From a virus: a DNA stretch of 64,000 nucleotides. Positions 44,181 to 59,322 of the stretch are shown here, in pieces. The notes beneath the pieces were generated by a model that was given only the letters and a program-made list of their open reading frames with translations, was not told the origin of the DNA and did no database searches. The position numbers and the translations under genes are program-made. Numbering within the stretch: position 1 is the first letter of the stretch; each line of letters starts with the position of its first letter. Where the stretch lies: positions 1-64,000 of IMG/VR virus record IMGVR_UViG_3300037333_000013; one strand, 5' to 3'.

Positions 44181-46514
44181 TTAATATCTTAACATCTTGT
44201 TATAAGAACCAATAATATAGTCCTCAACTCTTGGAACAACATATTCCTTGTTCCCACTAATATACTTAAAGTGTTTCGGTATGTTCTTACAGTATAACTG
44301 TACAAACTTCACATCGAACCCCTTAATCTCCCTAAGTCTACCAATCATCTGTATATATGTGGCAATGCTGTCTATGTTCACCGTGTTTAGTGTAAAGATA
44401 AGGTTCTTCACATCAATCGCTTCTGCAAAGACTTGTGGGTGTGTTACTCTAATGTCTGGTTCTAATGCATTCTCGTACTTGTCTTTCCCAGTATACTCTC
44501 TCACATCTAGCGTAGGATACCACTCCTTAACGGCATTTGTGATGACAGTCACCATCTTCAAACTAGATGCAAAGATGAGACATCTGTCATTTCCTCTGTT
44601 CTTTTTTATATAGAACATATCTACGTAGTGTCTTATCATCTCTAAGTAGTCCTCTAATAGTCTACTATTTCTGATAATGATATCTTCAAACATATCGTGG
44701 TTGTAACCATACCCACCATTCACACGTAACTCTCTAGCGGTATCTATACTATACCCAACATTCTCTAACTTAATATAGCTTTTATACGTCAGTAAGTCTA
44801 GACGCATATCTTCTGTAAAGAGTCCGTAGTGGAATCGGTTCAGTGCTTTGTCTTTTGTAATCAATGTGGCTGTTAGACCAATGACTTTCTTTGGGTCTAG
44901 TGCTAAGACTGCACGATAGACGTTGCTAAAGCTCTTGTGTGTTTCATCATTGACGAATGTGTGTATCTTTAGTTTACGCATAAACTCTTTCGGAGTAATG
45001 CAATATTCAGTCTCATCTGCTTTAATGGTATTCAAAAAGTATTCGTCAAAGTTATGGAACGTAGAACCACTTACCAAGATGAATGGAGGTACTTTATCCA
45101 TACCCATCAATTTACAGAATGACTTCTTGCCACTAAGTACAAATATATCATCATCCTCTACATCAAAGTATGTCTTGATGTCTAGTATCCACTTGCTGAT
45201 GTGTCCAGCTAACAGATAAAATAGTGTACGTTTCTTTAACTTTGAGATAACTAAGTTTGCCATATAAGTATTATGTGTTACGATATAATCTGTTGTGACA
45301 TAGAGTTCAGACTCATTGTACACTTCAATGCACGTCGCATTACAGACTCTCGTCGGTTCACACGACACGACTTCGACATATGAATCATCAAACCCTCTGA
45401 GTACATAGACAACATTTTCATATTTAATGTCTACTTGATACCCTGTTGAATAAAGTAGATGTTTTACAATTTCATAGAGTGTTCTATTGGTTGTCACATA
45501 CTTTATCCCACTGTTATTCCTAATTCCTTCTAAATGAAAACCTCTTAGTATTGAATGGCGTTCTTCTACTGTCAATTTTGCAAAGTAAAGACTTGGATTA
45601 TGTCTCATCTTACGAACAATGGATGTCACCTCTTTAAAGTGTGTAAATGATATATTCTGGCCAACCACTTTAAATTCATTGTCACTTACTACCCCATAGA
45701 GTTTAGATAGGTGACTCTCACCAAGCATCATATAGTCATCACCGCATACACCGAACATCAATACTGTTGATGCTATATAGTGTAACTCCGATAGTGCGTG
45801 TGTCTTATAAGGTTTAAACAATGGTATCTCAACACGTATCTTTGTCTTAAGACAAGCCTTTAATACTTTCGTATTAATCGTTTGTTCTAGTCCCCCTATC
45901 TTACATTTCCACAAGTGTTCGAGACCACACTCCGTTTTTCTACCATCTTTCAGTGCTACCTCATACATCTGTTTATTATAGTGTTTTGATACACTTGTAA
46001 TAAACGTCTCTTTACCATTATATGTTGTGACACTCTTTCCTACGTATGAACTCCCTATTGTTTCCCAGCCACGCTCTGTGAGTATTGGCGTATCGTCTGG
46101 TTGCATCTTCCCATATCCAGTACGTGCCATTACAAGTACTCTATCTGGATTCCGTTCTTTCAACATACCATTAATAAAGAACTCCTGTTCATCGCGTGGT
46201 TCGAATGTGTTCTTAAATGGAACATCAATGTCATCATATTCAGTCTCATCTACGATAACCGGAGAGAGTTTCTTTGCACCAAATCTGCTGACAAATTTAT
46301 AAATAAAAAACTGTGCGTCAGACGAGAGAATGGTATACTCGTTCTCTCTAATATTATGAAGATAGTATTTGTCTTTTGGGACGAACGTTGTCTTCCCTTT
46401 CACACGTAACATCTTCATTGTCACGAGTGTCTGACAGAAGTCTTTCATAAAGAAGTCCTCCTCATTGTTCTCAGGCATACACCTGAGAACTTGGTTTCCC
46501 TCTACTAACTTCAT
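44181..46514 (-). CDS. SF2 DNA helicase (UvsW-like) interrupted by an intein
   Basis: A 777-residue precursor. The helicase parts carry motif I (ARTGYGK at 130-136 continuing as T416 after the intein), motif II NDETH (~522-526), motif III GLTATL (546-551) and a C-terminal QMIGRLRE (motif VI). This order fits UvsW-type helicases that remodel recombination and replication intermediates. The Walker A lysine and threonine are separated by a 279-residue insert, so the unspliced protein cannot bind ATP normally. The exteins together are 498 residues, like UvsW. The gene follows the beta/beta-prime genes by 14 bases in the same operon. Confidence 0.85.
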   Translation of the reverse strand: MKLVEGNQVLRCMPENNEEDFFMKDFCQTLVTMKMLRVKGKTTFVPKDKYYLHNIRENEYTILSSDAQFFIYKFVSRFGAKKLSPVIVDETEYDDIDVPFKNTFEPRDEQEFFINGMLKERNPDRVLVMARTGYGKMQPDDTPILTERGWETIGSSYVGKSVTTYNGKETFITSVSKHYNKQMYEVALKDGRKTECGLEHLWKCKIGGLEQTINTKVLKACLKTKIRVEIPLFKPYKTHALSELHYIASTVLMFGVCGDDYMMLGESHLSKLYGVVSDNEFKVVGQNISFTHFKEVTSIVRKMRHNPSLYFAKLTVEERHSILRGFHLEGIRNNSGIKYVTTNRTLYEIVKHLLYSTGYQVDIKYENVVYVLRGFDDSYVEVVSCEPTRVCNATCIEVYNESELYVTTDYIVTHNTYMANLVISKLKKRTLFYLLAGHISKWILDIKTYFDVEDDDIFVLSGKKSFCKLMGMDKVPPFILVSGSTFHNFDEYFLNTIKADETEYCITPKEFMRKLKIHTFVNDETHKSFSNVYRAVLALDPKKVIGLTATLITKDKALNRFHYGLFTEDMRLDLLTYKSYIKLENVGYSIDTARELRVNGGYGYNHDMFEDIIIRNSRLLEDYLEMIRHYVDMFYIKKNRGNDRCLIFASSLKMVTVITNAVKEWYPTLDVREYTGKDKYENALEPDIRVTHPQVFAEAIDVKNLIFTLNTVNIDSIATYIQMIGRLREIKGFDVKFVQLYCKNIPKHFKYISGNKEYVVPRVEDYIIGSYNKMLRY
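45270..46106 (-). other. Class 3 intein with LAGLIDADG-like domain, within the helicase
   Basis: Residues 137-415 of the helicase precursor. It begins MQPDDTPILTERGW, lacking Cys/Ser1, and ends DYIVTHN before T416. It has the class 3 triad: Trp202 in block B (GLEHLWKC), Cys395 in block F (ATCIEVY) and Thr413 in block G (VTHN). Between them, YIASTVLMFGVCGDD and ILRGFHLEG resemble the two LAGLIDADG helices, followed by TLYEIVKHLLYSTGYQV. The second has Glu where Asp is typical, so endonuclease activity is uncertain. Confidence 0.82.
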
Positions 46515-46528
46515 TGTAGCTCCTTTTT

Positions 46529-48397
46529 TTAGTCGTAGTTATCTAAAAATCCTTGTGGGTCTATGAGTACATCTAAGTTATGTGGCTCTTTCATCTCAGA
46601 CTCAATATTATGTATGGTAAACATATTTTGCAATGTCCCAGTAGAAGCCATTGATGTAAACCCACGATACTTTGTAATGGTCCGTATTGTACCAACCTTT
46701 GCATCTAGCCCTCTAGACATCATATAATTCGTCTTTGATGGGTCTTTTGACGCTAGTCCATAGATAACTGTGGCTAGGTGTGAAATGTGCAGACTTAGCT
46801 TTGTATTGTATAAGTCGAAGGTCTCATTTAGAATACGTTCTAGAGACTCAATCTTACCACCATTAATACTCTTACCAGAACCCATGAGTGATTCCAGGTT
46901 CTTTACAAGTTGGTTGTAGTTGAATACATGATTTGGTATGAATAAGAACGGTGTCTTGTAGTTCCAGTTTGTGATATCTACCTCATAACTATCACCATTC
47001 ATTGTCTTACCATATGTTACCATATGCTTTAAGAACTCGGATGTGAATGCCCCGGACTTGTTACCTGCACCTATCTTGAGTTCTAACTCTTCTATCTTCC
47101 CTTTGCTATCTTCTAACTTGATAACGACTGTTTTCACATTAGAAATTCTCTCTGGTGAGACTCTCATGACATCTCTCTCTGTTGTGATGTCCTTAAACCC
47201 ATATGACTCACGCACCTTAACAGAGAGTGTTACGCGTTTGTATTTCTTGTAGAACCTTGTAAATGATAAATTAATATCAGATACTTTAATGTATTTAGAT
47301 AAGTCTCGGCTCAATACGTAGATACCACCATCTGCTGATACGATGAAGTGCTTTGCAGAGAGCAATGACTGTACTGCTGGCTCATTTACCTTTGTACAAG
47401 ACCACTGCCCTAAGTTGAATGCTTTGTGCTTCGCATACCCATGCTTACCGAAACAAGCACTACATACTTCTTTATTGTCCTTAAGTGTACAAGACAATGC
47501 TGTTCTGACATATATTGTCTTTCCGAATAGATGTGTATCATCTCTCGTAATTGTCTTCCACTCGTCTTCAATGTTTATCTTATACATCTGACCTAACAAA
47601 TGTTGTATATCACCATCGTAGTAGTCCCCATGTTCAGTCTTACCTGGTGGTCTAACAAACCGTTGTATCCCAACCTTTGAACCACAGTCTGTATATTTTA
47701 GCTTCTGCACATACTCTGATATAATCTGCGTCGCCTTTGCAAACGACTCAGCATCTCTAATAGATTGTGACGAATAGAAGAGTGCAGTAACAGCACCACG
47801 AGAATCAATCGCTTCAGAAATCAAGTCCGTGTATCCCTCAGCATAGGACTCTGGAATAATCGTACTGAAGATATCGCCAGCAATGTCATTACCGAACCCT
47901 CTTAGTGCTAAACATTGGTCTCCTTGCTTTGTATTAAAAGACTCTGTCAAGTATCCTATACGTACTTGGTTATCTTCACGTATCTCCTCGTTAATGACAC
48001 GTTTTGTCTCTTGGTAAACTTTCTTTACATTTACTGGGTTAGGGTTATCCAATAGTTCTCGTTTTACCTTTCTAATATTCTCATTGTTTATAATTTCATA
48101 AATATCAGATGTTGGCATAAACGACATGTACTTATCGTGCCCGAATCCATACTTATTATACACATCATTAATGAGTTTAAATGTGAGTATGTTGAACTGT
48201 TCTAATGCTTGTTGAAGTTTATCTACTGGTATATAAATAAACATATCTTTGTAAACATCATTTAGTGTAGATACAAGTGTCTTCTTTCCGTAGAGACCAC
48301 TTTTATAATGGTCTCTAATATCGTAGCGTGTTGTTAATCCTACTGAACGTGCTATGTCATTTATCTTAGTGTTCAAGTCAACTTCAGTCTTTGTCAC
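46529..48397 (-). CDS. RNA polymerase beta-prime-like subunit, C-terminal half
   Basis: A 622-residue protein. SRGAVTALFYSSQSIRDAES through KYTDCGSKVGI aligns by eye with the trigger-loop region and DCGT of bacterial beta-prime. The four zinc ligands are kept: Cys in TDCGS, then SCTLKDNKEVCSAC. LGQWSCTKVNEPAVQSLLSAKH corresponds to the [20 protein letters not shown]...H region. The catalytic NADFDGD motif of the beta-prime N-terminal half is absent, so another gene outside the window must supply it. Jumbo phages carry such split polymerases for host-independent transcription. Overlaps the beta gene by 14 bases. Confidence 0.82.
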   Translation of the reverse strand: MTKTEVDLNTKINDIARSVGLTTRYDIRDHYKSGLYGKKTLVSTLNDVYKDMFIYIPVDKLQQALEQFNILTFKLINDVYNKYGFGHDKYMSFMPTSDIYEIINNENIRKVKRELLDNPNPVNVKKVYQETKRVINEEIREDNQVRIGYLTESFNTKQGDQCLALRGFGNDIAGDIFSTIIPESYAEGYTDLISEAIDSRGAVTALFYSSQSIRDAESFAKATQIISEYVQKLKYTDCGSKVGIQRFVRPPGKTEHGDYYDGDIQHLLGQMYKINIEDEWKTITRDDTHLFGKTIYVRTALSCTLKDNKEVCSACFGKHGYAKHKAFNLGQWSCTKVNEPAVQSLLSAKHFIVSADGGIYVLSRDLSKYIKVSDINLSFTRFYKKYKRVTLSVKVRESYGFKDITTERDVMRVSPERISNVKTVVIKLEDSKGKIEELELKIGAGNKSGAFTSEFLKHMVTYGKTMNGDSYEVDITNWNYKTPFLFIPNHVFNYNQLVKNLESLMGSGKSINGGKIESLERILNETFDLYNTKLSLHISHLATVIYGLASKDPSKTNYMMSRGLDAKVGTIRTITKYRGFTSMASTGTLQNMFTIHNIESEMKEPHNLDVLIDPQGFLDNYD

Positions 48398-57798: not shown

Positions 57799-59322
57799 AT
57801 GAATTCTGTTACACTTTTAGTAGATTGTATTCTACTGTTACTCTTAGAGAGTAAAGCAAATTTAGAGAACGAGAGTAGCCAGATGATACAGAAGTTACTA
57901 GATTATCAAGAGTCAACTTCTACACGATGGAATGTATCGGATGACAGTATCACGATGAAACTCTCTACCATTATTGCATCACTCTTATCTTCTGTAAATA
58001 AAGGTGAACCTATTGATGTGGATAGAACGGTGCGTATCTTAAAGATTGAAACTGCTACTACGAGTGATTTAGAGGGTGATGAAGATTTAAGAGATACCAT
58101 CTTAGATATGATTAAGTCTGTTGAGTCACTAGATGGTGATGAACTATACAGATACATTGATAATATTAGAGCTTCTGTTTCCGACGCTTATAACAATGAA
58201 GCACTAAAACGTTTCTTGCAGTCACAAACTATGGATATGAATAAACGAAACAACAGCAAGAGTTTTAGAGATAGGTTAGAGAGCTTGAGAGTTTACGTGG
58301 ATAAACTTGAAGATGGTTCTGGAGATAAAGATGACGCTATTCTATTTGAACTCGATTTGGACGACTTATCAAAACCAGAAGTGGTTGAGAAGCTTGAGTC
58401 TAGTATTGTTACAAAACATATCTTTAGAACTGGTTGGAAGGGCATTAACAGAATGTATCAGGGTGGTAGACGTGTTCCAGAGTTCTCTTCCGTTGGTGCA
58501 TTAACACACAACTATAAGTCTGGCTATCATCTCTCTATCTTTGCGAGTATTGTATTGTACAATAAACCTATTATGAGGGATAAAGGAAAGCCACTGGCGG
58601 TATACTTTAGCTTCGAAGATGATGTTATGCCTATCTTTGAGTTCTTATATCAATTGCTATACATTACTGAGACAGGTTCTGTACTAAAAGAGATTTCTGT
58701 TAAACCTGTTGATATGGTGCGAGACGTTGCTAAGAAGTTGCAGGCTAAGGGATTTGCTGTAAAGATTATTAAAATTGACCCTACAAGATGGTCTTATGTA
58801 TCATTTGTAAATAAGGTGAAGCGTTATATCGCACAGGGATACGACCCACAGATTGTCGATGTAGACTACTTTGAAAAACTCCCAACCACTGGCATTGATG
58901 CAAATGGTCCTATGGGATACGATAAGAAAGTACTTGTAAGGAAAGTCAGAAACTTCCTAGCTAGTATTGACGCGAGTGGGAGTACTCCGTGGCAGCTCTC
59001 TTCTAAGGCATCAGACTTAAAGAAAGATGGATTGACAGATAAAGACTTCTTATCATTCGTTGCACCAAAGCAATATTATCAAGGGAGTGCTACGTTAGGA
59101 AATGAAATGGATTTAGAGACATTTACCAATATCGTAGAGACAAACGACAATGGGTGTTGGCTTAATATTCATATGGGTAAACATAAAATACCGACAGTTG
59201 TAGATAAGAAGTACAAAAGTTACTTCCTACCATATCCACAAAATGGACCAATACCATTTGATATAGAGTTAGAAAATGAAATTGGTTCATATGATGTAAA
59301 AACACCAAATCCATTCTACTAA
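57799..59322 (+). CDS. DnaB-like replicative helicase with degenerate Walker A
   Basis: A 507-residue protein. The C-terminal RecA-like domain starts TGWKGINRMYQGGRRVPEFS, the typical TG-x2-x-LN-x4-GG of DnaB/gp41 helicases, but the P-loop reads GALTHNYKSGYH, with only K-S kept of GxGK[ST]. VYFSFEDD corresponds to the strand with the catalytic Glu. N-terminal ~190 residues are helical, as in the primase-interacting domain. It unwinds DNA at the phage fork if active. TTTGAAAA lies 22 bases before the ATG and AAAGGAT at the ribosome site. Confidence 0.65.
   Translation: MNSVTLLVDCILLLLLESKANLENESSQMIQKLLDYQESTSTRWNVSDDSITMKLSTIIASLLSSVNKGEPIDVDRTVRILKIETATTSDLEGDEDLRDTILDMIKSVESLDGDELYRYIDNIRASVSDAYNNEALKRFLQSQTMDMNKRNNSKSFRDRLESLRVYVDKLEDGSGDKDDAILFELDLDDLSKPEVVEKLESSIVTKHIFRTGWKGINRMYQGGRRVPEFSSVGALTHNYKSGYHLSIFASIVLYNKPIMRDKGKPLAVYFSFEDDVMPIFEFLYQLLYITETGSVLKEISVKPVDMVRDVAKKLQAKGFAVKIIKIDPTRWSYVSFVNKVKRYIAQGYDPQIVDVDYFEKLPTTGIDANGPMGYDKKVLVRKVRNFLASIDASGSTPWQLSSKASDLKKDGLTDKDFLSFVAPKQYYQGSATLGNEMDLETFTNIVETNDNGCWLNIHMGKHKIPTVVDKKYKSYFLPYPQNGPIPFDIELENEIGSYDVKTPNPFY

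Follow-up and report, generated by a model that had tools for sequence, protein, structure and literature searches.

Class 3 inteins, which splice by a less common chemistry through two branched intermediates, are recognized by a Trp at position 12 of block B (B:12), a Cys at F:4, and a Thr at G:5, and are without an N-terminal nucleophile; their +1 residue is Ser or Thr, with a single known Cys exception (PMC3196547, PMC5222942, PMC6195587, PMC7664689), and the Cys at F:4 was required in all three class 3 inteins with such a signature that were examined (PMC5222942). Insertion between the Lys and Thr of a P-loop has been termed 'classic' (PMC5050341), and for another P-loop intein, that of P. 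horikoshii RadA, loss of ATPase activity is cited in PMC6195587. A class 3 intein in an SF2 helicase, Deinococcus Snf2, was characterized in 2010 (as cited in PMC3196547), and the D. radiodurans Snf2 intein splices via a block F branched intermediate according to the citations in PMC3196547 and PMC7664689. Class 3 inteins, insertion at P-loop K^T, and SF2 helicase hosts were thus each known before. A search of the open-access literature found no description of inteins in the phiKZ-like SF2 helicase; an intein in ORF40 of phage EL is probably listed in InBase.

The window analyzed here is a stretch of 64,000 nucleotides (positions 1 to 64,000) of IMG/VR record IMGVR_UViG_3300037333_000013, a phage record of 164.7 kb that may be a fragment. 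We are highly confident that it comes from a divergent phiKZ-like jumbo phage whose conserved SF2 helicase has a class 3 intein lodged in its Walker A motif, and that this intein would splice as proposed below. The precursor gene (44181..46514, on the minus strand, as are all features below unless noted) was recognized as an open reading frame and by PHROG, tblastn, and profile matches, and encodes 777 aa, comprising an SF2 (XPB/UvsW-like) helicase with an in-frame intein; a likely ribosome-binding site, AGGAG, lies 5′ of its ATG (46519..46524; aaaaaaaGGAGctacaATG). The N-extein (residues 1-136; 46107..46514) aligned with empty-site helicases and ends in the Walker A sequence RTGYGK; the insert (residues 137-415; 45270..46106) was identified as an intein by profiles, alignments, and an AlphaFold (AF2) model; and the C-extein (residues 416-777; 44184..45269) carries DETH (motif II), TATL (motif III), and QMIGRLRE (motif VI). 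The insert splits the Walker A motif (MARTGYGK^TYMANL), with Lys136 on one side and Thr416 on the other, and on re-reading of the ORF the coordinates, the length of 279 residues, and the GYGK^T site given by the initial annotation were all exact, as was its Met in place of Cys or Ser at the start of the insert (Met137, intein residue 1, which supplies no N-terminal nucleophile; 46104..46106). The 777-codon frame is open through the insert and continuous with the N-extein, and the precursor minus the insert is a protein of 498 aa that reads ARTGYGKTYMANL across the join.

The exteins matched the PHROG 'DNA helicase' (1.5e-22), recovered by tblastn the same helicase gene in named phiKZ-like phages, and matched XPB/RAD25 in a profile search (E = 1.9e-7), with T4 UvsW weaker; the full-length precursor model had a low pLDDT of 63 and was used only for its C-terminal helicase half, which matched XPB and UvsW folds. 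The SF2 motifs GYGKT (with the insert removed), DETH, TATL, and QMIGRLR were all found in the host, and the D-E-H, A-T, and Q-G-R-R columns were invariant in the alignment with relatives. These lines of evidence agree on the UvsW-like helicase that the initial annotation had named as the host; its suggestion that such a host is uncommon was wrong, given that the corresponding site is occupied by a class 3 intein in many phiKZ-like helicases and that Deinococcus Snf2 provides a precedent. Directly upstream lies a phage RNA polymerase subunit gene (46529..48397; phrog_3015, 1.8e-95), and such a gene adjoined the helicase in almost all relatives read. The phiKZ-like (Chimalliviridae) markers recovered were RNA polymerase subunits, a major head protein, and a DnaB-like helicase (PHROGs 3015, 3295, 3231, 3213); the nearest named phages were PhiPA3, FLC9, and 201phi2-1, and only about one-quarter to one-third of residues were identical in the nearest named relatives. 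A single-sequence search of IMG/VR found no close relatives of the intein or the C-extein, and the C-exteins proved too divergent for their alignment to serve as an IMG/VR query. Across the searches, no relative was closer than ∼30%. The DnaB-like replicative helicase of the same phage (phrog_3213; window 57799-59322, plus strand) is without an intein, and a scan of the phage record with the family profile and TIGR01445 found no intein other than the one described here. Recent transfer of the intein was also considered; its GC3 was lower (0.32 vs. 0.41-0.43), but its codon usage fits the phage genes, and no clear sign of recent arrival was seen.

There is almost no doubt that the insert belongs to the class 3 inteins. 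Two profile HMMs were made, one with the 10 helicase inteins at this site and the other with 39 inteins of IMG/VR; the window sequence was excluded from both, and the window protein scored E = 1.8e-27 and 2.4e-40, respectively; neither 1000 shuffles of the insert nor the 222 other six-frame ORFs of the window gave a profile match. Six residues, H64, W66, C259, T277, H278, and N279 (intein numbering), were invariant across the 11 helicase inteins at this site as well as across 40 aligned viral inteins of diverse kinds, and the W, C, and T fall on conserved class 3 columns of both profiles. In the precursor, they correspond to H200-L-W202 of block B (His B:10 and Trp B:12; 45909..45917), Cys395 of block F (F:4; 45330..45332), which is the predicted first nucleophile, and T413-H414-N415 of block G (G:5, G:6, and G:7; 45270..45278). 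The Trp202, Cys395, and Thr413 proposed earlier as the class 3 triad were accordingly present, together with His200, His414, and Asn415, and independent alignments and profiles put all three on the class 3 columns of blocks B, F, and G. Position 1 is not Cys, Ser, or Thr, whereas Trp is found at B:12, Cys at F:4, Thr-His-Asn at G:5-7, and Thr at +1; a Met at intein position 1 was also seen in phage EL and two other relatives (L072 and L081).

The AF2 model of the intein had a pLDDT of 88.3, with ∼95-98 in the splicing domain, and showed the HINT fold when compared by Foldseek; the best PDB match was PI-SceI (E = 2.8e-10, TMq 0.72), and, over the splicing domain, the structures of the class 3 inteins Msm DnaB1 and Mch DnaB1 (6BS8, 6RIX, 6RIY) matched with E-values of ∼1e-7 to 1e-6 and TMt of 0.74-0.84. 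TIGR01445 gave 19.1 bits on the window intein, under the curated cut-off of 24.5, and no family matched it in a Pfam search. In a splicing-domain tree without a class 1 outgroup, placement lacked resolution and the window intein formed a long branch; an independent acquisition, suggested by its position in this tree beside inteins from other ATPases, was not supported, as a constraint with the helicase inteins was not worse (p-AU 0.80). The window intein contains seven cysteines (intein positions 60, 68, 85, 121, 249, 255, and 259), two of them near Trp66 and a further one lying four residues ahead of the catalytic Cys. Redox control of the M. smegmatis DnaBi1 intein operates via a comparable second Cys.

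The intein also contains a diverged and shortened LAGLIDADG homing-endonuclease region (approximately residues 237-376; 45387..45806), in which AF2 keeps two alpha-beta-beta repeats at lower confidence. The spacing from W to C is 192 residues vs. a median of 257, or ∼65 shorter than usual, and Pfam LAGLIDADG_3, which matched 31 of 40 relatives, did not match the window intein. Block C reads FGVCGDD vs. the usual LGVLLGDG, with the packing Gly replaced, and block D has an Arg where Lys is conserved. The earlier description of a LAGLIDADG-like region with Glu as its second acidic residue held up; this Glu is E329 of the precursor and E193 of the intein (45528..45530), and stands in block E (RGFHLEG vs. 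RGLMDTDG) where the usual residue is a catalytic Asp, found in 29 of 39 relatives. The block C acidic residues D259-D260 (45735..45740) and E329 are near the expected catalytic places, with both motifs shortened. Each motif is one residue shorter, at equivalent places (FGV-CGDD, RGF-HLEG), and this paired shortening is perhaps a compensated change and not plain decay.

Judged from its sequence, the endonuclease part is probably decaying, either inactive or on the way out, although Glu as the second acid would not by itself prove inactivity. That it is still active, as a LAGLIDADG enzyme of compact form whose active site pairs Asp with Glu, would be compatible with the splicing explanation preferred here but is unlikely. 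The two-repeat LAGLIDADG-like fold in AF2, the closest fold being PI-SceI, the possibly compensated shortening of both motifs alike, and the example of I-DmoI, in which the second acid is naturally Glu (E117), speak for activity; however, the lack of the Pfam LAGLIDADG match seen in most relatives, the reduced W-to-C span, and the substituted block C Gly and block D Lys speak against it, and the AF2 model has low confidence at 194-197, its fold call depending in part on aligned relatives that have an endonuclease. The I-DmoI E117A structure was among the Foldseek listings. With an endonuclease that is shortened, diverged, and probably inactive, this copy therefore most likely persists now through splicing and vertical inheritance.

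From the conserved residues, the insert is predicted to splice itself out, and we infer a chemistry in which Cys395 would attack the peptide bond that joins Lys136 to Met137; His200 would act as the base, Trp202 and Thr413 would shape the active site, and the product would be the class 3 branched thioester. The N-extein would then pass to Thr416 (45267..45269), which is the predicted +1 nucleophile and, after splicing, the Walker A Thr, and Asn415 would cyclize, aided by His414, freeing the 279-aa intein and leaving the exteins joined as a 498-aa helicase with an intact GYGKT P-loop. The +1 Thr doubles as the Thr of the P-loop, and the insert breaks the phosphate-binding loop; we therefore infer that before splicing the precursor is likely unable to hydrolyze ATP and inactive as a helicase.

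It is very improbable that the insert is a pseudogene, that is, a class 3-type intein that does not splice and leaves the helicase dead. A pseudogene is documented among class 3 relatives (Arsp-FB24; PMC3196547), and the window copy has a long branch and a diverged endonuclease; however, no catalytic splicing residue has been lost, the +1 Thr is likewise in place, the whole frame is open, the flanking helicase motifs (GYGK, DETH, TATL, QxxGRxR) are preserved, codon usage is the same as in the phage's genes, and a conserved phage gene would pay a high price for a dead in-frame insert in its P-loop. Splicing by a class 2 or class 1 route, in which the +1 Thr directly attacks the N-terminal junction or some other residue acts first and Cys395 is incidental, is less credible still: Met1 fits class 2, and a Cys at F:4 is known in some class 1 inteins (PMC3196547), but Trp B:12 and Thr G:5 are also present, the +1 residue is Thr and not Cys, Cys F:4 is invariant across the family, and the three class 3 inteins of like signature all depend on it (PMC5222942). 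It is equally hard to believe that the product is a fusion that stays unspliced or that the Met137 ATG opens a gene of its own, since, although the intein starts with an ATG preceded by GGATATGGGAAG, most relatives have Ala and not a conserved Met at position 1, and the frame runs on from the N-extein of a precursor that has its own ribosome-binding site.

A class 3 intein was found exactly at GxGK^T in the helicases of ten named phages (Rebecca, Proteus phage 10, FishSpeaker, AerS_266, BUCT660, Kwan, VP4B, EL, LucasX, and LPKP23) and in an eleventh, Salmonella phage SA002, and the empty site that the initial annotation had proposed to look for in related phages was present in six phiKZ-like helicases (Eowyn, Ea35-70, Moabite, U5, DT01, and FLC9); because the named phages were picked by similarity to the intein-bearing query, these counts are not an occupancy rate. 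The SA002 gene (L011:1070-3660) is annotated as two ORFs, and the split between helicase 1 and helicase 2, which may reflect a frameshift or a sequencing error, falls just before the intein. The exteins of Rebecca (filled) and Ea35-70 (empty) were identical at 514 of 515 residues and those of BUCT660 (filled) and Moabite (empty) at 505 of 505, and the inserts in the two pairs, 1035 and 1044 bp, lie exactly at GK^T/S. The sole difference between the Rebecca and Ea35-70 helicases is at the +1 position, which is Thr with the intein and Ser without it. These pairs are precise presence/absence alleles of the kind that intein homing usually leaves behind, and the site is therefore a homing target; we propose that this family of elements spreads through homing at the GxGK^T helicase site. 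On the helicase tree, in which the window lies on a long branch, the intein distribution needs at least four gains or losses. Several silent changes near the site were observed between Rebecca and Ea35-70 (L002:1923-4505, L014:2030-3577), as co-conversion during homing predicts.

Used as a query against IMG/VR, the intein alignment recovered at least 416 relatives. Among the matches listed, HWCTHN was kept in 67 of 69 distinct complete relatives; the +1 residue, in 70 distinct relatives, was Thr (63) or Ser (7) and in no case Cys; insertion was directly after GK in 47 of the 50 with a readable N-junction; and most sat at P-loop K^T/S. The core variants seen in IMG/VR (L045-L049, L052, and L026/L027) were of two kinds, one with Phe replacing the B:12 Trp (HFCTHN) and one that apparently lacks His B:10, although the apparent absence of this His may be an alignment error. 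In the EL RNA polymerase subunit gene gp039 (L009:3-1838), the C-terminal end of an intein of class 3 type can be read (Cys...Thr-His-Asn, with Ser at +1); EL thus has inteins in two neighboring essential genes, gp039 and the adjoining helicase. Class 3 inteins of the same family were also seen in another large ATPase of phiKZ-like phages, again at the P-loop (GTGK^T / GSGK^T), in SL2_135 (L017) and in a second gene of VP4B (L018); VP4B thus has at least two inteins.

The window intein adds a very divergent lineage to class 3, and the phiKZ-like SF2 helicase beside the RNA polymerase subunit gene emerges as a repeated class 3 landing site at which full-length, shortened, and mini forms coexist with empty alleles. 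Rebecca and Ea35-70, and BUCT660 and Moabite, offer cultivable material for the study of homing, the cost of splicing, and Thr vs. Ser at +1, and public labels (helicase, terminase, 'DOD-type homing endonuclease', 'replicative DNA helicase (DnaB)') can be corrected. It is a speculative and rather improbable extension that the helicase Walker A motif, as a homing target shared among nucleus-forming phages, makes the intein a weapon in competition between phages in addition to a parasite: phages with the intein would cleave the helicase gene of relatives that lack it during co-infection, and in old lineages, this one among them, the endonuclease would decay while splicing stays and might delay activation of the helicase.

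By whole fold, the closest known system is PI-SceI (the Sce VMA intein), with HINT and LAGLIDADG parts, which differs from the window intein in being class 1, with Cys1, an active endonuclease, and a V-ATPase host. The Msm DnaBi1 and Mch DnaB1 mini-inteins (6BS8, 6RIX, 6RIY) share with the window intein the class 3 triad, the HINT fold, and insertion in a P-loop whose hydroxyl residue is the +1 nucleophile (PMC6195587), but they have a DnaB host, no endonuclease, and DxxH in block B (PMC6195587), whereas the residue three positions before the His is Gly in the window intein (GxxH). The D. radiodurans Snf2 intein is likewise class 3 and in an SF2-type helicase, although its host is the bacterial Snf2. 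Ghost gp214 (Bixzunavirus), apparently an orthologue of mycobacteriophage Catera Gp206, was among the best named-phage matches (24% over 98% of the intein) and has the WCT triad in a different host protein. The most similar setting is that of Pseudomonas phage EL gp040 (YP_418073) and the inteins of nine other named phages, which have the same helicase, RNA polymerase gene neighborhood, GxGK^T site, and triad as the window, at 24-30% intein identity. Most of these are 342-359 aa with a full LAGLIDADG region, whereas the window intein has 279 aa and a diverged endonuclease, and the EL intein (248 aa) and the mini-inteins of VP4B (198 aa) and LPKP23 (197 aa) are further stages of endonuclease loss.
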